Under the pieces are notes generated by a model that was not told the DNA's origin, searched no databases, and worked only from the letters and a program-made list of their open reading frames with translations. From IMG/VR virus record IMGVR_UViG_3300031963_001170, positions 1-20,093 of that record: a DNA stretch of 20,093 nt; one strand, 5' to 3'. Numbering within the stretch: position 1 is the stretch's first letter; every line of letters starts with the position of its first letter. The DNA is from a virus. The translations under genes and the position numbers were made by a program. Below, piece by piece: positions 2,581 through 14,990 of the stretch.

Positions 2581-3201
2581 ATGGATAAAATATACTGTAT
2601 AACTAACAGAATTAATGGTAAAAAATATATTGGTTACACAACAAGGCCGATAGAGGAAAGAATAAACGAACACTTTGCTCCATCTTCACACAAATCAGGT
2701 TATGCTATTCATAAAGCAATAAAAAAATACGGAAAAGAAAATTTTGATTATTGTATTTTATATGAAGGCAAAAATGCTTTAGAAAAAGAGGATCATTTTA
2801 TAAAACTATTAAATTGTGAATATAACATGACACCCGGTGGAAATAAACCTCCTAATCAATTAGGCAATAAATGGAATCTCACAGAAGAAACTAAACAAAA
2901 GATGAGAAAACCTAAAATGCCAAGAACTAAAAAACATTCTCAAAATTTATCAGAATCTTTAAAAGGTAAAATTCCTTGGAATAAAGGAAAAATTGGAGTT
3001 CAAAAAAGTCCTTGGAAAGGAAAAAGAAATAGCCCAATGACTCGTAGTTGGAAGATAACAAAAAATAATAAAACAATAATTATTGAAAATTTGGCTTTAT
3101 GGTGTGATAATAATGGTTATAACAAAAATACAGTAAAGTATCACTACTATAATAACTTATGGCCATATGAAGAAATACAAAAAATAGAAAAGGTCAAATA
3201 A
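2581..3201 (+). CDS. GIY-YIG homing endonuclease (Seg/Mob type)
   Basis: 206 residues. The N-terminus has the GIY-YIG nuclease core: YCI at 5-7 and KYIGYTT at 15-21, followed by an Arg-containing helix (RPIEERINEH) and the KYGKENF segment near 49-55. After the catalytic domain come a basic NUMOD3-like stretch (about 119-140, with SLKGKIPWNKGK) and a C-terminal segment with W-K-I-T, E-N-L and W-C-D-N-N (about 152-178), which resembles the NUMOD-type helix-turn-helix found in phage homing enzymes. Such enzymes cut alleles lacking the insertion and spread by repair. The gene is visibly more A+T-rich than its neighbours and sits between a late promoter and the gene that promoter probably served. 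No Shine-Dalgarno precedes its ATG. It shares a 3' boundary with the ATG of the next gene. Confidence 0.9.
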   Translation: MDKIYCITNRINGKKYIGYTTRPIEERINEHFAPSSHKSGYAIHKAIKKYGKENFDYCILYEGKNALEKEDHFIKLLNCEYNMTPGGNKPPNQLGNKWNLTEETKQKMRKPKMPRTKKHSQNLSESLKGKIPWNKGKIGVQKSPWKGKRNSPMTRSWKITKNNKTIIIENLALWCDNNGYNKNTVKYHYYNNLWPYEEIQKIEKVK

Positions 3202-3474
3202 ATGGCATACGATATTAGTAAAATATTAGCAGAATACGGAGAAGATGACTTTGGTTTCACCACAGTTGATGAAGCCGAGTATCAAGCTGTTATTGCAGAG
3301 AAAGATGAAACAGTAGAAGAGTATAAGGCTCGTCTACAACAAGTAGAAAAGATTATCATGCCATTTCTCACCAATCTTTATAAATCTGCTGGTCAACCAT
3401 ACATTCATTGGCCAAATCGTGGGCCAATTTTAGAAAAACAAATGCAGAAGATTCTTACTTTGACGAGGGGATAA
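3202..3474 (+). CDS. Conserved T4-like phage protein of unknown function (90 aa)
   Basis: Ninety residues starting MAYDISKILAEYG, directly after the endonuclease stop, with AAGGT about 8 nt before the ATG (inside the endonuclease 3' end). It is acidic at the N-terminus (DDFGFTTVDEAEY), with a heptad-like charged helix at about 30-50 (ETVEEYKARLQQVEKI) and a PYIHWPNRG segment near 66-74. I recognise this pattern (FGFTTVDE, then a Tyr/Trp-Pro-Asn-Arg segment) from small conserved ORFs in T4-like marine phages, but no function is known to me. Its stop overlaps the next start (TAATG). A small helical chaperone or regulatory protein is possible but unproven. Confidence 0.75.
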   Translation: MAYDISKILAEYGEDDFGFTTVDEAEYQAVIAEKDETVEEYKARLQQVEKIIMPFLTNLYKSAGQPYIHWPNRGPILEKQMQKILTLTRG

Positions 3475-3800
3475 TGTTTAAAAGCAAAGTAGATGAAGCT
3501 GCATATGTTGGCAATATTGGTATGATAGAACTTATGAAGTTTCACCAAAAAGCCAATGCAGAACAAAAGCGTAAGCTTCAACAACATATAAAGAATAAAG
3601 AAGGCAGTAAAGCTTGGCAACACATTCAACAAGTGACTGGCGTTAAATTGCATAAGAGTGTAAAAGAAGAAGTTAAGCCAGATATATTGCCTGTTGCTGG
3701 CGCCGGCCAGTGGGGAACAGATACATTACGGCGAAATTATCAACACGCTACACCAGGCCAAGAAATAAAACGATTTAAGGATTTTAAGAAGCATAAGTAA
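3474..3800 (+). CDS. Small conserved phage protein (108 aa)
   Basis: The start is placed at ATG 3474, which overlaps the preceding TAA by one base and has GAGGGG just upstream. A longer reading of the frame from 3408 would overlap the preceding gene by 67 nt and is not needed. The protein begins MFKSKVDEAAYVGNIGMIELMKFHQKA. The GNIG-[ML]-x-EL-[ML]-KFH segment and a later W-x-x-[IV]-Q-x-V-T-G-V-K-L segment (about 41-54) are familiar from conserved hypothetical proteins of T4-like phages. It is basic overall and predicted helical, with a Lys-rich end. No function can be assigned. It is the last gene before the glycan cassette. Confidence 0.75.
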   Translation: MFKSKVDEAAYVGNIGMIELMKFHQKANAEQKRKLQQHIKNKEGSKAWQHIQQVTGVKLHKSVKEEVKPDILPVAGAGQWGTDTLRRNYQHATPGQEIKRFKDFKKHK

Positions 3801-3821: not shown

Positions 3822-4658
3822 ATGAAAGATTTGATTATCGGCACTAGCACCAACTATGATTGGTCAAAACTAAAGTATTGGGTTAACTCAATCAATCAAT
3901 CAGGATTCCAAGGCGATAAGGTCTTGGTTCTCCTCAACTGTGATAAAGACACAGTAAAAAAAGTCCACGATGCTGGTTTTATTGTAGTTGGCGCTAGACA
4001 AGATGCCAATGGTAATCTTGTTTGGCAATCTGGTATTCCTGTTCATGTTGAGCGTTTCTTACATATGCACGCTTTTTTAGAGAAGCGAGAGTATCGTTAT
4101 GTTGTTACGACTGATGTAAAAGATGTGGTGTTTCAGCGTAACCCATTTGATTACATTGAAAAAACATTGAATGATGAAAAAGAATTGATGTTTGCTTCAG
4201 AATCATTAAGATATGTGGATGAACCATGGGGAAATGAAAACCTTATGCAAACATATGGTAATTACATCTATGACCAATATAAGAAAAACGAAATCTATAA
4301 TGTAGGTGTTCTTGCAGGCACAGGTCAAGCTATGAAAGATTTGTTTATTAATATCTTTGCTGCAGCAATTGGTCGCCCAATTCCTATTTGTGACCAATCT
4401 ACATTTAATTTTATGATTCAAAGCACATGGTTTCGTAAAGCATCTGTTTACCTACGGTCAGAAGATGCTTGGGCCGCACAACTTGGCACCACAGCAGACC
4501 CAAGTAAAATTGAGCAATTTAGACCAATGCTAGTTGAGGCAGAACCAAAAATGGAAAATGGTGAGGTTGTAACTTCTACCGGTATACCCTTTACAATTGT
4601 TCATCAATATGATAGAGTACCACAATGGCGTGAACTGATTGAGGCAAAATATGGCTAA
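3822..4658 (+). CDS. GT-A-fold glycosyltransferase-like protein
   Basis: 278 residues with GAGG 6 nt before the ATG. The protein opens with a DLIIGTSTNYDW strand-loop, and at about 93-110 has YVVTTDVKDVVFQRNPFD. The D98-x-x-D101 in that segment, followed by VFQ-x-[ND]-PF, is the nucleotide-sugar/metal-binding signature seen in several GT-A glycosyltransferase families. ICDQSTFN at about 188-195 matches the later acceptor-site Asp region seen in such enzymes, and an IVHQYDR segment lies near the C-terminus. No signal peptide or membrane segment is visible, so it should act in the cytoplasm. It is the first gene of the cassette that ends at 10463. The donor sugar is probably one made by its neighbours; donor and acceptor are not deducible. 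Confidence 0.65.
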   Translation: MKDLIIGTSTNYDWSKLKYWVNSINQSGFQGDKVLVLLNCDKDTVKKVHDAGFIVVGARQDANGNLVWQSGIPVHVERFLHMHAFLEKREYRYVVTTDVKDVVFQRNPFDYIEKTLNDEKELMFASESLRYVDEPWGNENLMQTYGNYIYDQYKKNEIYNVGVLAGTGQAMKDLFINIFAAAIGRPIPICDQSTFNFMIQSTWFRKASVYLRSEDAWAAQLGTTADPSKIEQFRPMLVEAEPKMENGEVVTSTGIPFTIVHQYDRVPQWRELIEAKYG

Positions 4659-5673
4659 GAAAGTATTAGTAACAGGTGGTGCAGGTTTTATTGCACATCA
4701 TTTAATTGAAGTTTTGTTAGAGAGAACTGATTGGGAGATTGTATCACTTGACCGATTGGATTTTTCTGGTAATTTAAATCGTTTATATGAAGTGGTGTCA
4801 GTAATGCCACCAGCTTGGCGTAAGCGAGTAAATGTTGTGTTCCATGATTTGCGAGCAGAATTAAATCCACAAATTGTAAGTTTGCTAGGCGATGTAAACA
4901 TTGTTCTGCACCTTGCGGCCGGTTCTCATGTTGACCGCTCTATTGAATATCCAATGGAGTTTGTAATGGACAATGTGGTCGGCACCACAAACTTGCTTAA
5001 CTACGCTCGTAATCTTCGTAATCTGGAGCGTTTTGTATATTTTTCTACTGATGAAGTTTTTGGTCCTGCACCAGCTGGTGTGTATTATAAAGAGCGTGAC
5101 CGTTACAATGCGACCAATCCATACTCAGCATCTAAAGCTGCCGCTGAGGAAATTTGTGTAGCATTTGAAAACACATATCGTATGCCACTTTATATTACAC
5201 ATACAATGAATGTGTTCGGTGAGCGCCAGCATCCAGAGAAATATATTCCACTTTGTATTCGCCGTGTTCATTCAGGCGACACAATTATGATTCATTCTGA
5301 CCCAAGCAAAACAAAAGCTGGATCACGACATTACATTCACGCAAAAGATGTGGCAGATGGTCTATTGCATATTTTAAATCTTAAAGGACCATTTGAGATT
5401 GATTACGGTGGCGCAAAATGCCCTAAGTTTAATCTTGTTGGGCCTGAAGAGATTGATAATCTTACACTTGCACAGATGATTGCTAAAGTGCAAGGAAAAG
5501 AATTACACTATCAAATGAATGATTTTCACTCTGCAAGGCCAGGCCATGATTTAAGATATTCATTGAGTGGTGATTACATGGAATCTTTAGGATGGAAACC
5601 ACAAATAGCATTGAGTGAAAGAATTGAACAAGTTGTAAATTGGACTTTGGCAAATGACAGGTGGTTAAGATGA
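4651..5673 (+). CDS. NAD-dependent nucleotide-sugar dehydratase/epimerase (dTDP-glucose 4,6-dehydratase-like)
   Basis: 340 residues from ATG 4651, overlapping the previous stop by 8 nt with GAGG just upstream. A longer start at TTG 4639 is unnecessary. This is an extended short-chain dehydrogenase: the NAD-binding loop GGAGFIA is at 9-15, with Ala instead of the usual last Gly. HLAAGSHVDRS is at 87-97, STDEVFG at 132-138 and NPYSASKAAAE at 156-166, giving the catalytic Tyr158-xxx-Lys162 pair. The Thr133-Asp134-Glu135 triad is typical of 4,6-dehydratases of the RmlB type, which make 4-keto-6-deoxy sugars. A GERQHPEKYIP segment near 190 also fits RmlB-like enzymes. It is flanked by glycosyltransferase-like genes. 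Exact substrate (dTDP-, GDP- or UDP-sugar) is uncertain. Confidence 0.85.
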   Translation: MAKKVLVTGGAGFIAHHLIEVLLERTDWEIVSLDRLDFSGNLNRLYEVVSVMPPAWRKRVNVVFHDLRAELNPQIVSLLGDVNIVLHLAAGSHVDRSIEYPMEFVMDNVVGTTNLLNYARNLRNLERFVYFSTDEVFGPAPAGVYYKERDRYNATNPYSASKAAAEEICVAFENTYRMPLYITHTMNVFGERQHPEKYIPLCIRRVHSGDTIMIHSDPSKTKAGSRHYIHAKDVADGLLHILNLKGPFEIDYGGAKCPKFNLVGPEEIDNLTLAQMIAKVQGKELHYQMNDFHSARPGHDLRYSLSGDYMESLGWKPQIALSERIEQVVNWTLANDRWLR

Positions 5674-6362
5674 AAATTGCATTATGTTTAAGTGGGCAAC
5701 CAAGATGTGTCAAACAAGGTTATGAATATCACAAGAAGAATCTACTAGACCATTATGATGTAGATGTTTTTTGCCATGTTTGGGAAGCACCAGGCATAGA
5801 AGAAGTTGAACTGTATCAAGCAATTGCTACAATGGTAGAAAAGCCTCTGACAAATGATTTATCAAAATACACCAGGGTTCCACCGCCACAACCAAATTGG
5901 AAAGTAAAAGACCCAGCTCGTGCAGCATGGAATCTTACATACTCTTTAATGAAAGCAAATGAGTTGTGTCAATCATGGGAAGAAAAGTATGATTGGGTTA
6001 TTCGCTCTCGTTACGATTTTGCATTGAATGTTGTCATACCTTTTGCAGAATTAGACAATACAAAGCTTTACATACCAAATTGCCGTATGACACCGCAAAG
6101 AGATTTTGGTAATGACCAGTTTGCTTTCTCTTCACAAGAAAACATGAACAAGTATGCGGACTGCTTCAATCAAATTGATAAGTTTTACGATAATGGAACG
6201 ATTATGATTGGTGAAGAAATGATGTCAGCGAACTGGAAAGAAAAAGATTTAGTTGGTGAAAATCTAGTATACTTCAATCCTAATCATCCATTTCCTCCAG
6301 GCCCACACAATGGCACCTGGCATAGCCTGTTGAGAGAAGATTTTGAATCTTGGCAAAAGTAA
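5670..6362 (+). CDS. Putative glycosyltransferase-like protein
   Basis: 230 residues. The start ATG 5670 overlaps the previous TGA (ATGA). It begins MKIALCLSGQPRCV, then has VDVFCHVWEA at about 31-40, and DWVIRSRYDFAL at 108-119, with an R-x-R-x-D signature. GNDQFAFSS follows at about 150-158. This combination (LSGQPR, D-V-F-x-H-x-W, R-x-R-x-D, D-Q-F-x-F-S) is one I know from glycosyltransferase-like proteins in polysaccharide clusters and from viral genomes. The DxD-like acidic site would be the RYD segment. It is cytosolic, with no membrane segment. The family function is poorly characterised, so glycosyl transfer is an inference from fold-type motifs and from the cassette. Confidence 0.6.
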   Translation: MKIALCLSGQPRCVKQGYEYHKKNLLDHYDVDVFCHVWEAPGIEEVELYQAIATMVEKPLTNDLSKYTRVPPPQPNWKVKDPARAAWNLTYSLMKANELCQSWEEKYDWVIRSRYDFALNVVIPFAELDNTKLYIPNCRMTPQRDFGNDQFAFSSQENMNKYADCFNQIDKFYDNGTIMIGEEMMSANWKEKDLVGENLVYFNPNHPFPPGPHNGTWHSLLREDFESWQK

Positions 6363-6385
6363 TAAGACAACTGAAAGGTCATTCA

Positions 6386-7093
6386 ATGAGTAAAGTTGAA
6401 TTGATACAAAAAAACAACGGTGTTTTTGTTCGTAAAACTGGCGGCGTTGGCCGCAATCTGGAGAGATATGATGCTCTATCTCGCCTTAATTTGCCTATTC
6501 CAAAACTATTAGAAGTTTATGGTGATTCATATGACATGGAATATATTCAACATGAAGATATGCGAACTTATTTGTCATCACACGATGTAACAAAGCTAGC
6601 ACAATTCATCACACAAACAATTGCTACATTGTCAAAAGAAGTAATAGAAAAAGATTACTCATATATCTATGACCAAAAGTTATCTGTATTTCCATGGACA
6701 AGATATGAATTGCCATTTACAGCCGGTGAGTTATATGCTAAACTGCCAAAAACTTTACCATCATCCGAATATCATGGCGATTTTACATTAGATAACATTC
6801 TATATGATTTAAAAGATGGCTTTGTATTGATTGACCCATTGACCACAGAATATGATTCGTATGTTTTTGATTTAGCAAAACTTCGCCAAGACATTACTTG
6901 TAAATGGTTTGTTCGCAAAGAAAACTTTTATTTTGATTCTAAGCTTAAAGTAATAGAAGATGCCATCAAGCCATTTGAAAGTAGTATGAACGATTATCTG
7001 TTGATACTCATGCTCATGCGTGTTTTACCATACACATATTTTGATGATGATAAGTTATTTGTTGAAAGTGAGATAAGAAAATTATGGAAGTAA
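6386..7093 (+). CDS. APH/choline-kinase-family phosphotransferase
   Basis: 235 residues. I place the start at ATG 6386, which has GAAAGGT 6 nt upstream. The in-frame TTG at 6350 lies inside the previous gene. The catalytic loop is YHGDFTLDN at 129-137 (Brenner-type HGDxxxxN with Asp132 and Asn137). The metal-binding Asp150 lies in FVLIDP, and FDLAK at 161-165 follows, as in aminoglycoside phosphotransferase-fold small-molecule kinases. The N-terminal half resembles a short kinase N-lobe (about 10-55). The next gene is a nucleotidyltransferase fused to a HAD domain. Kinase plus nucleotidyltransferase pairs of this kind occur in LicA/LicC (phosphocholine) and AmgK/MurU (amino sugars). By analogy this enzyme probably phosphorylates a sugar or small alcohol for activation. 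Confidence 0.75.
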   Translation: MSKVELIQKNNGVFVRKTGGVGRNLERYDALSRLNLPIPKLLEVYGDSYDMEYIQHEDMRTYLSSHDVTKLAQFITQTIATLSKEVIEKDYSYIYDQKLSVFPWTRYELPFTAGELYAKLPKTLPSSEYHGDFTLDNILYDLKDGFVLIDPLTTEYDSYVFDLAKLRQDITCKWFVRKENFYFDSKLKVIEDAIKPFESSMNDYLLILMLMRVLPYTYFDDDKLFVESEIRKLWK

Positions 7094-8097
7094 TTATTCC
7101 TTGTGCAGGTGCCTCGTCACGGTTTCCCAATATGAGGCCAAAATATCTGTTGACTGATTATGCTGGTCGCCTGATGGTTGAAAATGCAGCGGAACATTAT
7201 ATTGATAAACACCGTGTCACAATTGTAATACTTAAAGAGCATGATGAAAAATACATGGCTCGCAAAAAATTAGAAGAGGCATTTGGTGGTAAAGTAGACA
7301 TTGTTGTTTTGGACAAATTAACAAGAGGCCCAGCTGATACCGTTTATCAAGCTATCAAAAGAGGTCGTGTAAATCCATTATCACAACTATTAATCAAAGA
7401 TTGTGATGGATTTTATAAGACACACGAACAAGATGGGAATGTAATTTATATTGCCAAACTATCAAAGCACCCACGCATACGAACTGCCGGTGCTAAAAGT
7501 TATACTCTTACAAATGACCAAGGAATTATCAACTCTGTTGTTGAAAAGAAAGTTGTAAGCGACCATTTCTGTGTTGGTGGTTATCAGTTTGAAACAGCAC
7601 AAAGTTTTGTTGATGCATTTGACAAACTATCAACAACAGGCGAAATCTTTGTATCTAATATTGTAGATTATATGATTTCACAGAACACAATATTCTTTGA
7701 AAGTGAGGTAGAAAACTTTATTGATGTTGGCACCGCAGAAGATTGGTTTGACTTCAACAACAAGCCAACTTATTTCTGTGATATTGATGGCACTATTATT
7801 AAATCTAAATGGGATTATTACACAGAAACAGAACCATTATGGGATAATGTGGCAGCTTTATTGAGTAAAAAGAAATCTGGTTGTAAGATTATTTTTACTA
7901 CATCACGCTTAGAAAAACATCGTAAGTTGACAAGAAGCATTTTAGATGAACTTGGTTTTGATGATTGTGAATTAATTATGGGTGTTCATCATACGAAGCG
8001 CATTTTGATAAACGATTATGCCAACTCTAATCCATATCCTACAGCCGTTGCAGTCAATATCAAACGAGATAGTGAAGATTTAGGAGATATGATTTGA
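7084..8097 (+). CDS. Bifunctional sugar-phosphate nucleotidyltransferase-HAD phosphatase
   Basis: 337 residues, overlapping the kinase gene by 10 nt. Residues 1-220 form a nucleotidyltransferase: IIPCAGASSRF at 4-14 (a loop related to GxGxRF), PKYLL at 19-23, RGPADT at 81-86 and KDCDGF at 105-110, where the DxD-type acid pair would bind metal. The FIDVGTAEDWF segment at 212-222 is typical of the C-terminal end of this fold. Residues 228-337 form a HAD domain: DIDGT at 233-237 (nucleophile Asp233), FTTSR as motif II, and ILINDYANSNPYP near the end in place of motifs III/IV. The fusion suggests activation of a sugar phosphate coupled to removal of another phosphate, as in heptose pathways, though the order of reactions is inferred. 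Confidence 0.8.
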   Translation: MEVIIPCAGASSRFPNMRPKYLLTDYAGRLMVENAAEHYIDKHRVTIVILKEHDEKYMARKKLEEAFGGKVDIVVLDKLTRGPADTVYQAIKRGRVNPLSQLLIKDCDGFYKTHEQDGNVIYIAKLSKHPRIRTAGAKSYTLTNDQGIINSVVEKKVVSDHFCVGGYQFETAQSFVDAFDKLSTTGEIFVSNIVDYMISQNTIFFESEVENFIDVGTAEDWFDFNNKPTYFCDIDGTIIKSKWDYYTETEPLWDNVAALLSKKKSGCKIIFTTSRLEKHRKLTRSILDELGFDDCELIMGVHHTKRILINDYANSNPYPTAVAVNIKRDSEDLGDMI

Positions 8098-9104
8098 ATA
8101 TCTTCATTACTGGTGCTGCAGGCGGCATTGGTTCTACGCTTGCACTCAAGTTGAAACAGATTGGTCATAAAGTAATTGCATATGACAATTTAAACAATGG
8201 TTACGAAGAAAACCTAAAAGAAAACGGTGAGTTCTTCTGTCAATTTATTCGTGGCGATATAAGAACAGATTATCGTTTCATAGCCAATTACTTTGATTAC
8301 CATGAAATAGATGTTGTTATTCATCTTGCAGCCATTACTTCTTTGCCACAATGCGAAACTGACCCACACACTTGTATTGATGTAAATGTTGGAGGCACCG
8401 CAAATATTCTTAACGCAGCTCGCCGTAAAGGTGTTCATGTCATTGTTGCTAGCACTTCAGCTATTTACGAAAACAATGACCCAAAAGAAGCACCGTTTAA
8501 AGAAAGTATAGATGTGATACCAAGATTGTTTTATCCATTATCAAAGAAACTCATGGAAGAAACAATACAATCATTCATACGAAACTATGATATGAATATT
8601 ACCACTTTGCGATTCTTTAATGTATTTGGTCCACGCCAAGACATTCATCGCAAATCACCGCCTCTAATGAATTACATTGTTCGTCAGGTAAAAAGAAAAG
8701 AACCAATTACACTTTATTCATCTGGCAACCACCCACGAGATTATATTCATGTAGATGATGTGGTGTCAATGATTGAGAAAGTGTTGCCAAGAACTGACAG
8801 GCAAATTTTTAATGTTTGCACTGGCACATTGACTTCTGTGAGTGACATTGTAGTGTATGCAAAAAAGGCTTTTGGTGCATTTGATTATAAGTTTGACCCA
8901 CCTGCTAAATATTGGTCAGGATACGATGAACTTTATGGTGGTGCCAAACCAATACAAGATTTTGTAATTGAAAACGAAGTCAAAAAGTTTTCATTGGGTT
9001 GCACAAAGAAGGCTGAAGAATTATTGAATTGGAAACCAAACAAGGACATTGAATCGTTAATGATTGAATCAATGAAACAAAATTATGAGCTTTATTCCGG
9101 ATAA
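8094..9104 (+). CDS. NAD-dependent nucleotide-sugar epimerase/dehydratase
   Basis: 336 residues from a TTG start. TTG 8094-8096 overlaps the previous TGA (TTGA) and has TAGGAG about 7 nt upstream, and the Rossmann strand begins at once (NIFITGAAGGIGS), so no later start is credible. The dinucleotide loop is G7-x-x-G10-x-x-G13. VVIHLAAITS at 74-83, STSAIYE at 120-126 and YPLSKK at 147-152 give the Ser/Thr and Tyr147-xxx-Lys151 active site of UDP-galactose-4-epimerase-like enzymes. NVFGPRQ and a GNHPRDYIHVDD segment match the sugar-nucleotide region of this family. Thr in place of Asp in the catalytic triad region points more to an epimerase than to a 4,6-dehydratase. It works with the upstream nucleotidyltransferase to finish the cassette's sugar. 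Confidence 0.85.
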   Translation: MNIFITGAAGGIGSTLALKLKQIGHKVIAYDNLNNGYEENLKENGEFFCQFIRGDIRTDYRFIANYFDYHEIDVVIHLAAITSLPQCETDPHTCIDVNVGGTANILNAARRKGVHVIVASTSAIYENNDPKEAPFKESIDVIPRLFYPLSKKLMEETIQSFIRNYDMNITTLRFFNVFGPRQDIHRKSPPLMNYIVRQVKRKEPITLYSSGNHPRDYIHVDDVVSMIEKVLPRTDRQIFNVCTGTLTSVSDIVVYAKKAFGAFDYKFDPPAKYWSGYDELYGGAKPIQDFVIENEVKKFSLGCTKKAEELLNWKPNKDIESLMIESMKQNYELYSG

Positions 9105-9783
9105 AAATCTATTCATTGTAACATCGGCCTTACACGCTAACATTGGTGTTGTTAATGAACAAGATAGGCTGTTACAAACAATTAAAACCCTAGAGAATCT
9201 TAAAGAAAAAGTACCTGATGCAATGGTTGTTTTGGTTGATGGTTCGCCGCACAATATAAGTGAAGATGTAAAAAAGAAGATTGGTGAACACTGCCAAGCA
9301 CTTTGGTTTAACCAACATCCAGATGTGTATGCAATGGCTTCATCTGGCCGCAAAAGTGAAGCTGAAATTATTATGTTGTTTGCTACTCTTGTTCATTTAA
9401 AACAAAGCAAATCAATACATGAAATAAAACGAATATTTAAATACTCTGCACGAACCATATTAGAAGATGATTTTGATATCAAAGAATATGATAATCTGTA
9501 TGGCAAATATGTTTTCAAAAAAGCTATACCATCTTGGATGTCACCTGAAAGAAAAACAAACATTACTGACCATCTTTATATTACAAGATTTTATTCTTTG
9601 TGCCCATCATTACTAGATAATTATTTACTGACATTACCACCAATTTTAAACAATGTCATTCAGCATGGCATTGACACAGAACACTCACATTACTTGTGCC
9701 TAGATAAAAGATATGTTGTTGAATTTGATAGAACAAAATGTGCCGGTGTTGTAGCCGGCTCAGGTGAAACGGAGAGATATTAA
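9085..9783 (+). CDS. Unassigned glycan-cassette protein (232 aa), possibly glycosyltransferase-related
   Basis: The ATG at 9085 overlaps the preceding gene by 20 nt and has no clear ribosome-binding site, so coupling is likely. The protein starts with a hydrophobic strand, NLFIVTSALHANIG, then MVVLVDGSPH at about 47-56, a pattern like the first strands of a nucleotide-binding fold. At 112-127 is RIFKYSARTILEDDFD, which resembles the [KR]-x-S-[AG]-R-[YT] segment in some polysaccharide-biosynthesis transferases. DTEHSHYLCLDKRYV is near 197-211. I do not recognise a named family. Its position between an epimerase and a methyltransferase argues for a role in the same glycan pathway. Cytosolic; no signal peptide. 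Confidence 0.5.
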   Translation: MSFIPDKNLFIVTSALHANIGVVNEQDRLLQTIKTLENLKEKVPDAMVVLVDGSPHNISEDVKKKIGEHCQALWFNQHPDVYAMASSGRKSEAEIIMLFATLVHLKQSKSIHEIKRIFKYSARTILEDDFDIKEYDNLYGKYVFKKAIPSWMSPERKTNITDHLYITRFYSLCPSLLDNYLLTLPPILNNVIQHGIDTEHSHYLCLDKRYVVEFDRTKCAGVVAGSGETERY

Positions 9784-10463
9784 TGAATCTTTATGACTAT
9801 TGGGTGAATAATACAGGTAAGAAAATTACAAAATGGACCCATTATTTTTGGGTGTATGAAAAACATTTTGCATCGTTGCGTGATAAAGAATTTAAGATGC
9901 TAGAGATTGGTGTTCTCAATGGTGGTTCATTAGAAATGTGGCGTGAATATTTTCCAAAAGCCACAATCGTTGGTATTGATATTACACCGTCATGCAAAGA
10001 ACATGAGCAAGCAGATAAAAATATTCATGTTCGTATTGGTGACCAAACAGACGAAAAGTTTCTACAAGAATTGGTTGATGAATTTGGTGCCTTTGATTTA
10101 ATTTTAGATGATGGTTCACACCAAGTTGCTCATGTCAATAAAACATTTCAATTTTTATTTCCTAAACTAGCAGACAATGGCATTTACTTTATTGAAGATA
10201 CTCACGCTGCATATTGGGATTCTCATGGCGGTAGTATTGAAGCAAAAGAATCTATCAACAATGTCGCCAAAGACCTCATAGATTCAATCAATGCAGACCA
10301 TGCCAGAGGTCAGAAAACACCAGATTATTTTACACAGAACATCAAGTGTATGTCGGTCTACGATTCTATTCTAGTTTTTGACAAAGGAAATGTAGGCCGC
10401 AAGGCACCAGAAGAATATGGTGGCCCTAAATCCGATGAAGTTTTAGTTATTAGAACTCACTAA
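9783..10463 (+). CDS. SAM-dependent sugar O-methyltransferase-like protein
   Basis: 226 residues with GGAGAG 6 nt before the ATG, whose first base overlaps the previous TAA. The N-terminus has THYFWVYEKHF at 19-29, then MLEIGVLNGGSLEMWREYFP at 39-58, the SAM-binding motif I (E-x-G-x-x-x-G-G), and IVGIDI at 62-67 with Asp66 for the ribose. LILDDGSH at 106-113 and YFIEDTH near 155 supply acidic/His residues like the metal site of MycE-type macrolide-sugar methyltransferases and the related cephalosporin-hydroxylase-like group. I infer that it methylates a hydroxyl on a sugar made or attached by this cassette. It is the last gene before the late promoter at 10467, so it probably ends the cassette transcript unless readthrough occurs. 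Confidence 0.75.
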   Translation: MNLYDYWVNNTGKKITKWTHYFWVYEKHFASLRDKEFKMLEIGVLNGGSLEMWREYFPKATIVGIDITPSCKEHEQADKNIHVRIGDQTDEKFLQELVDEFGAFDLILDDGSHQVAHVNKTFQFLFPKLADNGIYFIEDTHAAYWDSHGGSIEAKESINNVAKDLIDSINADHARGQKTPDYFTQNIKCMSVYDSILVFDKGNVGRKAPEEYGGPKSDEVLVIRTH

Positions 10464-10466
10464 TCG

Positions 10467-10474
10467 TATAAATA
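10467..10474 (+). promoter_or_regulatory. T4-type late promoter box (perfect TATAAATA)
   Basis: TATAAATACC lies 4 nt after the methyltransferase stop, in the 46-nt gap before the ATG at 10510. It matches the T4 late consensus in all eight positions and leaves about 30 nt of leader containing GGGAG (10501-10505). It should drive the capsid-protein-like genes from 10510 on. Confidence 0.85.
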
Positions 10475-10509: not shown

Positions 10510-13077
10510 ATGAAATTTAGCGAATTCCTACGGGAAGCGAAAGAAAAACACGCAGTTATGGCCTTTGGCCGGTTAAATCCACCGACCATTGGCCATGAAA
10601 AACTTGTCAATAAGGTACAAGAAATCGCCAAGAAGGTTGGTGGTTCTGCACACATTGTTGTTTCGCATACACAAGACGCAAAGAAAAATCCTCTTACTCC
10701 CGCACAAAAACTAAAGCACGCCAAGCGTGCCTTTCCTGGTGTTAATGTCACCGCATCTGACGAATCTGCACCAAATTTCCTAGCACAAGCCGCAAAGTTA
10801 CACAAACAAGGTGTAACACATTTTCACATGGTTGGCGGTTCAGACCGTGCCGAAGAGTATCATAAACTTTTACACAAATACAATGGCGTAAAAGGCCCAC
10901 ACGGTTCATATAACTTTAAACATATTGAAGTCCATTCAGCCGGCGAAAGGGACCCTGATGCTGAAGGTGTTGAAGGTATGTCAGCATCTAAAATGCGTGA
11001 ACACGCTGCAAATGGTAACTTCAAAGAGTTTCGTAAAGGTGTGCCATCAGCAATGTCTGATGCTCATGCAAAAGAAATGTATGGTCATGTTCGCAAAGGC
11101 ATGGGTATCAAAGAAGATATTGACCAAGAATTCCAAGAATTGCTTATAGAAGGTGTGCATGATAAAGCCATTTTCAAAGCTGTGTTTCTTGCTGGCGGTC
11201 CAGGTTCTGGTAAAGATTATGTGCTTGACAACACTCTTTCAGGTCATGGTCTTACAGAAATTAATTCCGATAAAGCGTTAGAGTTTCTAATGGACAAAGA
11301 AGGCCTTGATAAAACAATGCCTGAGTCCGAAAAAGAAGTAAGAGATTTTGTTCGTAGTCGTGCAAAGAATATGACCGAATTAAAGCAACGCCTCGCACTT
11401 ACTGGTCGTAATGGTCTTATTATCAATGGCACAGGCGATGATTACGATAAAATTAAACGAATCAAAGAGCGGCTAGAAGAAATTGGCTACGACACTTCTA
11501 TGATTATGGTGAATACAGCCGATGAAGTTTCTGCTGCACGAAATGTTGAAAGAGGTCAAAGAGGTGGTCGCACAGTACCAGAAGATGTTCGCCGTCAAAA
11601 ATGGGAATCGGTACAAAATGCAAGGCCAGAATTAGCAAAGATGTTTGGTGACCGTTATGTTGAATTTGATAACTCTGAAGATTTAAGAAATGCGTCACCT
11701 GATGTTGTGAAAGCTAAAAAAGATGAAATGCTAAATCTGTATAAAGGTGTTCAACAGTTCGTAGCAGAGCCACCAAAATCAGAAGCAGCATCGTTATGGG
11801 TTGCACATCAAATAGATTTGTCAGATAAATTGCCTGTACCAAAAGAAGGTGCAGAAATGCCTCCACATCCAAGTTCACAGGCATCTGAAGAAGCTCGTAA
11901 GATGGGTTTACAATACTACGGCTTTGGCCGCTACGGAAAGAATGGTAAAGTAATGTATCGGTCAATACACGACAAATTGGTTGAAGTTCAAAGAGAAGAA
12001 TCTAAACAATTGAACACTTCTTCAACCGAAAAACCATTAAACAAAAAAGATTCTGATTTTGATAAAATATTTAAAGAAGAAGCTTCTGTTGATGAAGAGT
12101 TTGAAGAAGTGTTTGCTGAAGATTTACGCCAATGGTTTGACCCAAAACATCCAAAAGGCGGATGGAAAAGAATTAATGCAAAAGGTGAAGCAATTGGTCC
12201 ATGTGCTCGTGAACCAGGCGAAGCAAAACCAAAATGTATGTCAAATGAAAAACGAGCTAAGTTAAGTAAAAAAGAAAGAGCTGCAGCAGTATCAGCCAAA
12301 CGCCGGCATGATCCAAATCCTGAGCGCAAAGGCCCACCAATTAATGTTTCTAATTTTGGCAAAGGTAAAATATCAGAATCATATTCATTATCTGATTCAA
12401 GTGCTATGAATCTATTGTTACTTGGCACTAAAGTTGATGAGCATGATTACGATAACTTTGAGGAAGAAAAGAAAGAAATTAAATTACTTAAAGATAAAAC
12501 CGGCAAAGTAAGAACATTCATGCTTCGTAGAGCAGCTGCAAAGGAAGCACATACGATTAATGGTACAGTCATGCCATATAAAAATGGCTATGTTATTAAA
12601 TTAAATGAGGAGAATGACAATGTTAAAATTCATCAAAAATCTATTCAAAACTTCCGAGCCACATCCAATGGAAGCGGTCACACAGGCCTCGCTGAGCAAG
12701 CCAGTAGACCTATCACCGAAGGATACGCCGAGCTCACCAGCGCCAACGAATACGCCAAAGACGAAGGCATCCAACTCCAAGCCGGCAGCCAAGCCGACAA
12801 GTCAACCAAAATCACGCTCGCAAAAATCCGGCAACGGCAAAAAGAAAAAGTAAAAGAGTCAATTGATAAAGGCATTGAACCAGGTTTGTCTATGAGTCAA
12901 AGTGGCGAAAATCTAACTCGCAAAGGATTAAAAACAAAACAAAATGTAAAACCTTTTGAAGAAGCAATTGGTGCCGGCGGTGAAGATGCTACATCAATGA
13001 GTGATTTTAATGATAATGTATTGAAACAAAAAGGTATCAACATTAAAACATTTAAAGCAAAAAGGCCAATAGGATGA
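10510..13077 (+). CDS. Multidomain nucleotidyltransferase/P-loop kinase phage protein with capsid-targeting-like N-terminus
   Basis: 855 residues. Residues 1-10 (MKFSEFLREA) resemble a T4 capsid-targeting peptide. Residues 14-195 are a cytidylyltransferase-type fold: PTIGHE at 25-30 (HxGH variant), MVGGSD at 107-112 and GMSASKMR at 156-163 (in the place of ISSTxxR). Residues 218-415 are a P-loop kinase-like domain with GGPGSGKD at 229-236 and NGTGDD at 306-311. A linker follows, then a QYYGFGRYGKNGK module (469-481), a Cys-containing basic module (GGWKRINAKGE, GPCAREPGE, PKCMS; 550-578) and a conserved tail with GLSMSQSGENL and FKAKRPIG. I know the last modules from many T4-like phages but not their function. 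Residues about 717-777 are encoded by an unusually G+C-rich patch with a second open frame. The enzyme substrates are unknown; NMN- or glycerol-phosphate-type substrates are only family possibilities. Confidence 0.75.
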   Translation: MKFSEFLREAKEKHAVMAFGRLNPPTIGHEKLVNKVQEIAKKVGGSAHIVVSHTQDAKKNPLTPAQKLKHAKRAFPGVNVTASDESAPNFLAQAAKLHKQGVTHFHMVGGSDRAEEYHKLLHKYNGVKGPHGSYNFKHIEVHSAGERDPDAEGVEGMSASKMREHAANGNFKEFRKGVPSAMSDAHAKEMYGHVRKGMGIKEDIDQEFQELLIEGVHDKAIFKAVFLAGGPGSGKDYVLDNTLSGHGLTEINSDKALEFLMDKEGLDKTMPESEKEVRDFVRSRAKNMTELKQRLALTGRNGLIINGTGDDYDKIKRIKERLEEIGYDTSMIMVNTADEVSAARNVERGQRGGRTVPEDVRRQKWESVQNARPELAKMFGDRYVEFDNSEDLRNASPDVVKAKKDEMLNLYKGVQQFVAEPPKSEAASLWVAHQIDLSDKLPVPKEGAEMPPHPSSQASEEARKMGLQYYGFGRYGKNGKVMYRSIHDKLVEVQREESKQLNTSSTEKPLNKKDSDFDKIFKEEASVDEEFEEVFAEDLRQWFDPKHPKGGWKRINAKGEAIGPCAREPGEAKPKCMSNEKRAKLSKKERAAAVSAKRRHDPNPERKGPPINVSNFGKGKISESYSLSDSSAMNLLLLGTKVDEHDYDNFEEEKKEIKLLKDKTGKVRTFMLRRAAAKEAHTINGTVMPYKNGYVIKLNEENDNVKIHQKSIQNFRATSNGSGHTGLAEQASRPITEGYAELTSANEYAKDEGIQLQAGSQADKSTKITLAKIRQRQKEKVKESIDKGIEPGLSMSQSGENLTRKGLKTKQNVKPFEEAIGAGGEDATSMSDFNDNVLKQKGINIKTFKAKRPIG
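12620..12853 (+). CDS. Nested out-of-frame ORF, 77 residues, Pro/Ser/Lys-rich (possible overprinted gene)
   Basis: This frame lies wholly inside the 855-residue gene, shifted by +2. ATG 12620 has GAGGAG at 12607-12612 with a 7-nt spacer, an ideal ribosome-binding site. The peptide begins with an amphipathic MLKFIKNLFK helix, continues with a Pro/Ser/Thr/Lys-rich middle and ends SGNGKKKK. It would be a small basic, disordered protein, perhaps nucleic-acid binding. It coincides with a patch of 56% G+C (101 of 180 bases at 12661-12840), where stops are rarer in any frame, so an open frame here is weaker evidence than usual. Two further ATGs (12605, 12614) are in frame. Confidence 0.4.
   Translation: MLKFIKNLFKTSEPHPMEAVTQASLSKPVDLSPKDTPSSPAPTNTPKTKASNSKPAAKPTSQPKSRSQKSGNGKKKK
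12661..12840. other. G+C-rich island (56%) inside an AT-rich gene
   Basis: By hand count, 101 of 180 bases are G or C, against 20 of 60 just after (12841-12900) and 19 of 60 shortly before (12541-12600). In the main frame the third positions shift to C; in the nested frame they shift to G or C. The edges coincide closely with the nested 77-codon ORF. This suggests either a recently acquired segment or codon choice constrained by two reading frames. Confidence 0.8.
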
Positions 13078-13574: not shown

Positions 13575-14990
13575 ATGACTCAATTTACGACACAAACAAA
13601 TCAGTTTTTAAATACCAATAGGCACATCTATGAGGTCATGTATTTGGCCAATGGTGCCAATGGTGATATTGTGTCAACTGAAAATAGATTACCTGTGGAT
13701 GCTGCATTTTCTGGCCCTACTGGTGATGCTTTTGGGCGTTTGCGTGTTGCAGAACCATTTACACTTGGCGACTACAAACATCTTTATGGAATTGATCCAA
13801 ATTTTATAGATTTTACTGCAAATGGCGGTTCAGTTGTGTTTACAGGAAATACTGCTTCTGCCACATTATCAACAAACAATAGCACATCATCTGTATCGGT
13901 ACACCAAAGTAAATTTTATCACAGTTATCAACCAGGCAAATCACAAGTTATTCTTTCTTCTGTTGTGTTTGGGTACGCACAACAAAATGTGACAAAGAGA
14001 ACTGGATACTTTGATGACCGTGATGGAATTTATTTTGAGCAAGTTGGTTCAAACACTTCAAACAATACAGATAACGGAACATTAAATTTTGTAATTCGTT
14101 CTTTTGTAAATGGAACACCAGAAGAAACAGATGTTGGTTCTTATAAGCGTAGAGTGCCACAATCACAATGGAACCGTGACCCTTGTGACGGTACAGGCCC
14201 ATCAGGTTTCAACATTGATACTTCAAAAACACAATTAATTTACATTGACTTTCAATGGCTAGGTGTTGGCCGTGTTCGTGTTGGTTTTGTCCATGATGGT
14301 GAGTTTATTATAGCACACGAATACTATAATTCAAATGTATTGGATACAGTTTATCTTTCAAATCCAAACTTACCAGTTCGTTGTGAAATAAGAAATACTG
14401 GAACAACTTCTGGCGGTTCTATGGGTCAAATTTGTGCTACTGTTATTTCAGAAGGTGGTTACAATGAATCTGGTCTTGATTGGGGAATTGTTAACAATGC
14501 AAGAACAACTCAATCACCAGCCGCAACAGAATTGCCTCTTGTTGCATTAAGATTAAAGAACACATTTAAAACTTATCCAAACCGATTGAGTGTGAAATTA
14601 GATACACTCTCAATGTATGCAGAAACAAACAGTATTATTTTTAAGATTGTAAAATTACCTAATACTGGAGATTTAGCAAACAGTACCGGTCCAATTGTTT
14701 GGATTTCAGCCGATCCAGATAGTGGTTGTGAATATAGTGTTAATGCTGATACTTACACATCCGCAAACGCAGAAATTCTTCTTGCCGGATTTGTTCCTGC
14801 GGGTGCTTCACAAAACGCACTATCACCAGTAAATACTGGAGGCATTTCTGAAGCAAAAAAGAATTTTATTACGCAAAATTATGATTCATCAAATTCAGAA
14901 GTATATGTAGTAGTGGTAAGAACAATTACAACAGCCGCTCAAGCAGTTGCAACGGTTGCTGCTGCCTTACAATGGCGAGAAATTTATTAA
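13575..14990 (+). CDS. Virion structural protein, probable tail/fibre-associated
   Basis: 471 residues rich in Ser, Thr, Asn, Gly and beta strands, without Cys clusters or enzymatic motifs. After an N-terminal helix and an LPVDAAFSG segment comes DAFGRLRVAEPFTL (about 51-64); G-R-L-R-V-[SA]-x-P-F is a pattern I know from large structural proteins of T4-like marine phages. Further conserved-looking segments are YQPGKSQVILSS (119-130), KRTGYFDDRDGI (about 143-154), WLGVGRVRVGFVHDGE (about 229-244) and LPVRCEIRNTG near 273. The start has only a weak ribosome-binding site and follows the previous stop by 6 nt. A role as a virion surface or fibre-type protein is inferred. It sits downstream of the glycan cassette and would be a candidate acceptor, which is speculation. 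Confidence 0.7.
   Translation: MTQFTTQTNQFLNTNRHIYEVMYLANGANGDIVSTENRLPVDAAFSGPTGDAFGRLRVAEPFTLGDYKHLYGIDPNFIDFTANGGSVVFTGNTASATLSTNNSTSSVSVHQSKFYHSYQPGKSQVILSSVVFGYAQQNVTKRTGYFDDRDGIYFEQVGSNTSNNTDNGTLNFVIRSFVNGTPEETDVGSYKRRVPQSQWNRDPCDGTGPSGFNIDTSKTQLIYIDFQWLGVGRVRVGFVHDGEFIIAHEYYNSNVLDTVYLSNPNLPVRCEIRNTGTTSGGSMGQICATVISEGGYNESGLDWGIVNNARTTQSPAATELPLVALRLKNTFKTYPNRLSVKLDTLSMYAETNSIIFKIVKLPNTGDLANSTGPIVWISADPDSGCEYSVNADTYTSANAEILLAGFVPAGASQNALSPVNTGGISEAKKNFITQNYDSSNSEVYVVVVRTITTAAQAVATVAAALQWREIY

Follow-up and report, generated by a model that had tools for sequence, protein, structure and literature searches.

A candidate allele of an exchangeable rare-sugar glycosylation locus in T4-like aquatic phages

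An eight-gene cassette lies at positions 3822-10463 of the IMG/VR virus record IMGVR_UViG_3300031963_001170, and the window analysed here is that entire record of 20,093 bases. The cassette comprises three glycosyltransferases, two SDR enzymes, an APH kinase, a nucleotidyltransferase-HAD fusion, and a MycE-like O-methyltransferase. In our reading, to which we give an even chance, T4-like (Kyanoviridae-like) aquatic phages have a swappable rare-sugar glycosylation locus that acts on a phage virion protein, and the eight genes represent one of its alleles. A preliminary description of the sequence had proposed an overlapping eight-gene glycan cassette in this order and on this strand; the layout was borne out, and the family assignments held in family searches. 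Each open reading frame (ORF) overlaps or abuts the next, and module counts refer to 26 nonredundant intervals of at least 4.4 kb:

3822-4658, + strand: GT1, glycosyltransferase-like, the constant first cassette gene; weak match to PF03407 (Nucleotid_trans)/phrog_1579; present in 24 of 26 nonredundant cassettes
4639-5673, + strand: RmlB-like nucleoside diphosphate (NDP)-sugar 4,6-dehydratase, optional; TIGR01181 at 230.2 bits, short of the equivalog cut-off of 365.1 bits; 2hun at 3e-46; 4 of 26 cassettes
5661-6362, + strand: GT3, predicted GT-A-fold glycosyltransferase with a GT6-like fold, co-inherited with the donor module; model pLDDT (predicted local distance difference test) 83; phrog_13607, function unknown
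6350-7093, + strand: APH-family small-molecule (probably sugar) kinase; PF01636 at 31.2 bits against a cut-off of 23.2
7084-8097, + strand: NT-HAD, fusion of a sugar-1-phosphate nucleotidyltransferase (NT) and a HAD phosphatase; DIDGT and NDY motifs; linked with APH in 14 of 14
8094-9104, + strand: EPI, GalE-like SDR (epimerase or reductase), optional; 4zrm at 6.6e-34; 9 of 26 cassettes
9085-9783, + strand: UNK, predicted GT-A-fold glycosyltransferase with KxSxR instead of DXD; mean pLDDT 92; no sequence-family match
9783-10463, + strand: MT, MycE/TylE-type sugar O-methyltransferase, catalytic domain only; MycE 3ssm at 2.5e-32 and demethylmacrocin O-methyltransferase 8ia9 at 4e-25

Internal ATGs are present at 4651 and 5670, and some of the listed ORF starts are probably a few codons too early. 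The identical gene set and order recurred in the independent contigs L004/L177, L014, and L016, and the cassette is therefore not a product of chance. A DNA search for close relatives among sequenced phages returned only a 5% match, in RmlB, to a marine single-cell virus, and no close GT1 was found in 50,697 phage records, which held one distant relative.

The proposed activation, remodelling, transfer, and methylation of sugars were supported by the enzyme families together with their catalytic motifs. The RmlB-like protein keeps the dehydratase TDE and YxxxK motifs (STDEVFG and YSASK aligned with 2hun). The APH kinase has the HGDxTxxN and ID motifs, and its HGD, N, and ID positions do not vary among 12 relatives. 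MT retains the metal and catalytic residues (DDGSH and IED aligned with 3ssm/8ia9); at 226 amino acids it matches only residues 199-393 of MycE and lacks the N-terminal auxiliary domain (chain residues 1-198). None of the eight proteins has a membrane segment, the highest 19-residue mean (1.65) being the first Rossmann strand of RmlB, so the cassette holds no flippase, polymerase, ligase, or Gtr-type membrane transferase.

The gene at 9085-9783 had been left unassigned in the preliminary description, and it indeed matched no sequence family. A structural model built from 16 relatives, however, gave it a GT-A fold: its leading PDB matches were all GT-A glycosyltransferases, with Z up to 13.8. 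The fold extends over the whole chain in both UNK and GT3 (Z 13.8, 195-196 residues aligned), and the GT3 model resembles alpha-1,3-galactosyltransferase and ABO enzymes (Z 13.8). The UNK model also matched 2p72, a capsid glycosyltransferase of the chlorovirus PBCV-1, at Z 12.8. UNK has no invariant DXD metal motif; an invariant KxSxR stands at residues 119-123, and the metal-independent GT-A enzyme 4ayj is among its structural matches. The DXD motif is present in many, but not all, GT-A families. A shared fold alone is no proof of activity, and it is the company of the neighbouring genes that makes a glycosyltransferase function likely for UNK and GT3. On fold and gene company, UNK is likely the third GT-A-fold glycosyltransferase of the cassette.

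In IMG/VR relatives the cassette fills a defined site between the DUF6267-s90-s130 genes and CYT, which in the window is framed as follows:

140-1243, + strand: phrog_2496 gene, conserved neighbour of unknown function (family search)
1369-2547, + strand: DUF6267 gene, conserved left flank; PF19782 at 2.2e-114; same position in relatives and isolates
2581-3201, + strand: GIY-YIG free-standing homing endonuclease inserted in the site; phrog_314 at 2.5e-28
3202-3474, + strand: s90, small conserved gene that precedes GT1 in nearly all relatives with the cassette
3408-3800, + strand: s130, small conserved gene upstream of GT1; its profile aligns with portions of CYT proteins from isolates
10510-13077, + strand: CYT, cytidylyltransferase/kinase-like, conserved right flank; phrog_3041 and phrog_395; N-terminal MKFSEFLxE conserved

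The distance between the flanks, compared across 79 unique intervals, was 9-72 bp in many distant relatives and 1-2 kb in others, and reached 4.5-9.7 kb in those with a cassette. The isolates Melnitz, C48C1, and DLP_6 have one small gene between the flanks, and isolate HTVC008M has two, the latter with a match to the kinase-like part of CYT.

What stands behind GT1 differs between relatives. In type I, to which the window belongs, GT1 is followed by GT3, APH, NT-HAD, with or without EPI, and then UNK. In type II it is followed by GT3, NT, an APH-like kinase, a cyclase, an SDR, and then UNK. Type III is a heptose-type cassette with a Gmd-like dehydratase, an HddA-like GHMP kinase, Fcl-like, GmhA-like, and RfaE-like proteins, and GT4; type IV has radical SAM proteins and methyltransferases; and type V has GT4, GT2, a long NT, and a GDPD-like protein. 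The type II cyclase scored 300 bits to 4p53, which we take to be ValA, versus 132 bits to 5hvn, the best match of the ordinary dehydroquinate synthase type. This ValA-like gene was found at L005:10011-11141 (2.6e-88 to 4p53) and also in L178, L274, L058, L061, L077, and L078. Together with NT, the APH-like kinase, and the SDR, the cyclase could by homology constitute a C7-cyclitol pathway in phages; neither a phage valiolone synthase nor a phage-encoded C7-cyclitol glycan was found in the literature searched.

The modules come and go separately across the relatives. APH and NT-HAD were both present in 14 of the 26 intervals and both absent from the other 12, GT3 and UNK were both present in 16 and both absent from 10, and MT, EPI, and RmlB occurred in 14, 9, and 4, respectively. 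The 3' slot is held by MT or by RfbH with partners. RmlB, the sole deoxy-sugar enzyme, is the least conserved member, being present in 4 of the 14 cassettes with APH/NT-HAD, and no 3,5-epimerase or dedicated 4-reductase is present in the cassette. By gene content, APH and NT-HAD, with or without an SDR, behave as an independent module that is swapped in phages for a cyclase-based module of the C7-cyclitol kind; no published function of this combination was found in the literature searched. The APH-SDR-NT-HAD trio is contiguous in Helicobacter too, with NT-HAD 37% identical. Since RmlB is optional and the APH/NT-HAD pair is independent and exchanged for a cyclase module, the cassette consists of interchangeable modules rather than one pathway. 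The earlier proposal of an almost complete pathway for an O-methylated deoxy sugar was thus right about a glycan cassette and overstated a single pathway. In relatives, where the same description had suggested checking for the presence of the cassette, the whole set recurs in order and its modules also vary separately.

Exchange at the site was repeated. The DUF6267 tree shows no fewer than 11 changes of cassette type, with at least five for the cyclase type. The trees were quick searches and included only seven cyclase-type rows; the three far rows labelled as GDPD type (L153, L163, L205) are very distant and probably mislabelled from weak matches, but the APH/cyclase comparison, repeated without them, is unaffected. 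In contigs L198 and L199, DNA identity is 96.6% from DUF6267 to s90 and ~88-90% in the stretch that closes with GT1; beyond GT1 no DNA similarity is detectable until 54 bp before CYT, from where the two are 99.0% identical. L273 and L274 carry different modules, the breakpoints lying within GT3 and UNK. The window and L177 are ~86-92% identical on either side of a GT1-RmlB stretch of 70-81%. GT3 tracks the module type, with three changes versus a mean of 6.5 and a minimum of 4 in 200 shuffles, whereas GT1, UNK, and DUF6267 do not (6, 6, and 5 changes, respectively). This suggests that GT3 uses the donor made by the module. By these comparisons the site behaves like a bacterial capsule locus, with fixed flanks, an anchored first glycosyltransferase, and interchangeable sugar modules.

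Free-standing homing endonucleases (GIY-YIG, one HNH-like) recur at the locus at differing points (2581-3201 in the window; L037:2786-3496; L039:3962-4474 and 5396-5935; L064:2889-3536; L053:11231-11833). In the window, L037, L039, and L064 they lie within or beside the cassette and could promote exchange, as has been suggested for other cassettes of T4-like phages (PMC3037559).

A late-type motif was found at these positions:

113-120, + strand: GATAAATA, late-promoter-like motif and probable unit start; 37 of 39 relatives have it ahead of the gene that precedes DUF6267
2568-2575, + strand: TATAAATA, where the homing-endonuclease insertion begins; without conservation among relatives
10467-10474, + strand: TATAAATA, motif-predicted late promoter of the next unit and right boundary of exchange; in 16 of 26 nonredundant intervals it is conserved and precedes CYT by 40-71 bp

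The motif NATAAATA (ATAAATA) occurs on the + strand of the window only at 113, 2568, 10467, and 17757, each time just upstream of an ORF, and the identity between L198 and L199 resumes at the position of the 10467 motif. Within 165.6 kb of cassette interior from 24 relatives the motif occurred once, whereas 7-mers with its composition (A5T2) had a median of 44, which strongly upholds the earlier remark that the cassette has no internal late promoter. The single transcript from 2568 that had accompanied this remark was not upheld: the site belongs to the endonuclease insertion, cassette-bearing relatives have no site there, and 2568 was ruled out as a general transcript start. We infer instead two units, a late one that begins at 113 and extends through the cassette and another that begins at 10467. 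The same counts bear on whether the genes are mere filler or selfish cargo, functionless and carried for headful packaging or by homing endonucleases. Sullivan et al. raised such "stuffer DNA" for the lipopolysaccharide (LPS) genes of cyanophages (PMC3037559), and homing endonucleases do occur in the site. However, the ORFs and motifs are intact, the genes remain linked across diverged relatives, and ATAAATA is avoided within cassettes, which makes this explanation highly improbable.

In the proposed pathway to the donor sugar, the APH kinase would phosphorylate a sugar or sugar phosphate at its anomeric carbon, a second phosphate would be removed by the HAD domain, and the NT domain would make the NDP-sugar. 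The GalE-like SDR, joined by the RmlB-like dehydratase in the window allele, would remodel the activated sugar or sugars, and the MycE-like enzyme would add the O-methyl group. The donor may be a hexose or a heptose. Kinase, phosphatase, and nucleotidyltransferase activities are all present as APH and NT-HAD, apparently from families other than HddA/GmhB/HddC. Types I and II feed the same GT3-UNK frame, and type I has a HAD phosphatase where type II begins with a cyclase of the sedoheptulose-7-phosphate group; cyclases of this group expel phosphate themselves. In Helicobacter bilis (G017 contig 77, L281), APH, an SDR split into two ORFs, NT-HAD, and gmhA are contiguous; the trio adjoins the only gmhA of the genome above the cut-off, and hldD/hldE-like genes lie elsewhere. 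The Helicobacter trio comprises the same three families as the phage module, although the gene order differs and no glycosyltransferases are adjacent; it is itself an uncharacterised nucleotide-sugar module. The sister cassette of type III carries a GmhA-like gene.

Several findings count against a heptose or against a fixed set of activating enzymes. A third genome of the Helicobacter phylum has the trio without gmhA beside it, and no GmhA was found in the cassette or in 16 related phage contigs, which are partial; a phage-encoded GmhA feeding APH/NT-HAD was accordingly rejected. In L066 and L068 the nucleotidyltransferase after APH has no HAD domain, so the phosphatase is not a constant part of the module. 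Given the genome without adjacent gmhA and the 16 contigs, a heptose-type donor is only a lead, not a result, and we rate it as plausible but short of an even chance.

The alternative is that the donor is an ordinary deoxythymidine diphosphate (dTDP)-6-deoxyhexose made by RmlB and the SDR, with APH/NT-HAD salvaging a common sugar; such a donor would be compatible with any acceptor. The RmlB-like protein has the TDE and YxxxK motifs and its best PDB matches are dTDP-glucose 4,6-dehydratases, and MT matches MycE/TylE, enzymes that act on 6-deoxyhexoses. However, RmlB falls under its equivalog cut-off, and most APH/NT-HAD cassettes lack it while GT3, UNK, and usually MT stay, which leaves this alternative rather doubtful. 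RmlB may supply a second, deoxy sugar in the window allele.

Under the reading of a glycosylation locus acting on the virion, the cassette genes would be transcribed midway in the late unit starting at 113; GT1 would start a glycan on the acceptor, GT3 would add the sugar of the module, and UNK would add or extend it with another. The acceptor would be a phage virion protein, so that alleles would give particles of different "glycotype". The site with its conserved flanks, the module structure, the repeated exchange, and the enzyme families with their catalytic motifs are documented at the level of sequence; the acceptor is placed by context. The three acceptor classes named in the preliminary description, virion, host surface, and DNA, remain the right list, and we infer that a virion protein is the most likely, host surface next, and DNA unlikely. 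A virion acceptor is supported by the position of the cassette in a late-type unit among virion-type genes and by the lack of membrane segments. The closest isolate relatives of MT are mycobacteriophage methyltransferases that stand beside a glycosyltransferase. Glycosylation of capsid and tail tube by phages has precedent (Freeman et al. 2023, as cited in PMC12619734 and PMC12363180).

Points on the other side concern the protein modified and the variability of the locus. The fibre-like protein encoded at 13575 (phrog_1645), suggested earlier as the acceptor, is missing from L083, a contig with the complete cassette (up to 96% identity) and no room for 13575, and no match was found in L088 or L096; 13575 is thus ruled out as an obligatory acceptor. 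An arms race at the host surface would account for the hypervariability no less well than virion decoration does, and the literature on pelagimyophages favours O-chain modification (PMC7029224). The enzymes could then alter host LPS, O-chain, or capsule during infection and block adsorption of sibling or competing phages, with competition between phages driving the variability. Such a role was proposed for pelagimyophage glycosyltransferases and LPS genes including rfaE (PMC7029224) and for cyanophage LPS clusters; cassettes of the relatives include enzymes of heptose, RfbH, and Fcl type that are typically found in O-antigen loci, and type turnover is high. The late-type promoter architecture speaks against it, as does the lack of a membrane segment in the eight proteins, although host flippases could still serve. 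We regard host-surface modification as a serious competitor, though well short of an even chance.

Sugars might instead be placed on modified bases of phage DNA against restriction. Virus-encoded glycosyltransferases that glycosylate DNA are known (as cited in PMC12619734), and some related cassettes contain 2-oxoglutarate-Fe(II) oxygenases. However, no member of the thymidylate-synthase/hydroxymethylase family (PF00303) was found in 14 related contigs, which are partial, and several glycosyltransferases with O-methylation and a late position would be unusual for this role, which we consider quite improbable.

The flanking genes offered further observations. At ~1366-1375 the window has ~8 extra bases (TGACTGAA) relative to L004, which divide the DUF6267 N-terminus between a short ORF upstream and an overlapping start at GTG; they are either an assembly error or a real variant. 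An N-terminal signature, M[KNR]F..[FY][LI]xE, is common to the otherwise unrelated neighbours at 10510, 13074, 18151, and 15839 (internal Met) and to DUF6267 of the relatives, and is kept in nearly all relatives; the cassette enzymes lack it. We take it to resemble the T4-type capsid-targeting sequence, and CYT is probably head-packaged. NMNAT/cytidylyltransferase-like proteins occur in cyanophage virions (PMC9602691). The nearest DUF6267 among isolates belongs to Methylophilales phages (51%), and naming a host from this match was dropped because it is too distant.

Glycan cassettes of phages are already known. In bacterial capsule and O-antigen loci, flanks are conserved and the centre is swapped. 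The phage locus is alike in its conserved flanks and ends, its interchangeable sugar pathways, and its conserved transferases, which allow homologous exchange; unlike those loci, it has no export, polymerase, or ligase genes and sits in a phage late unit. The membrane flippase and glucosyltransferase that mark gtr-like O-antigen conversion are lacking as well. Mycobacteriophages that glycosylate their virions (Che8, Corndog, Myrna; Freeman et al. 2023, as cited in PMC12363180 and PMC12619734) likewise encode soluble glycosyltransferases; according to these citing papers a capsid/tail-tube glycan was shown there, whereas the window is known from its genes and adds sugar-activation modules swapped at a fixed site. 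PBCV-1 capsid glycosylation (PMC4691112, PMC7019647) also relies on virus-encoded glycosyltransferases and methyltransferases, but PBCV-1 is a eukaryotic algal virus and the similarity of 2p72 to UNK is a likeness of fold common to many GT-A families. Also comparable are the LPS and glycosyltransferase genes in the host recognition cluster and hypervariable regions of pelagimyophages and the LPS clusters of cyanomyophages (PMC7029224, PMC3037559, PMC9602691), T4-like aquatic phages with glycosyltransferases and nucleotide-sugar enzymes in variable regions and homing endonucleases near mobile cassettes. The pelagimyophage island, however, lies between VrlC and gp14 and was described as diverging gradually rather than by replacement (PMC7029224), whereas the present site runs from DUF6267/s130 to CYT, with an anchored first glycosyltransferase and replacement of whole pathways or single modules. 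In the open-access papers searched, no description was found of a fixed exchange site whose rare-sugar modules, one of them with a ValA-like cyclase, can be swapped.

Sugar genes of phages are usually listed singly as auxiliary metabolic genes of unclear use. Our analysis assigns a fold to the gene at 9085, resolves the cassette into functional modules, and brings to light a cyclase resembling valiolone synthase in phage contigs. A more speculative possibility, which we consider unlikely on present evidence, is a "glycotype" locus at which T4-like phages swap complete rare-sugar pathways, including C7-cyclitol (ValA-like) and heptose modules with the C7-cyclitol feeding the same transferase pair as the window module, so that virions or infected hosts would be decorated with interchangeable O-methylated C7-derived sugars. 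Near-identical phages that differ at the locus, such as L198 and L199, allow the effect of the cassette to be compared. The anchored GT1, the constant transferase pair, and the exchangeable donor modules turn a list of sugar genes into testable questions, namely which sugar each module makes and to which destination it is delivered.

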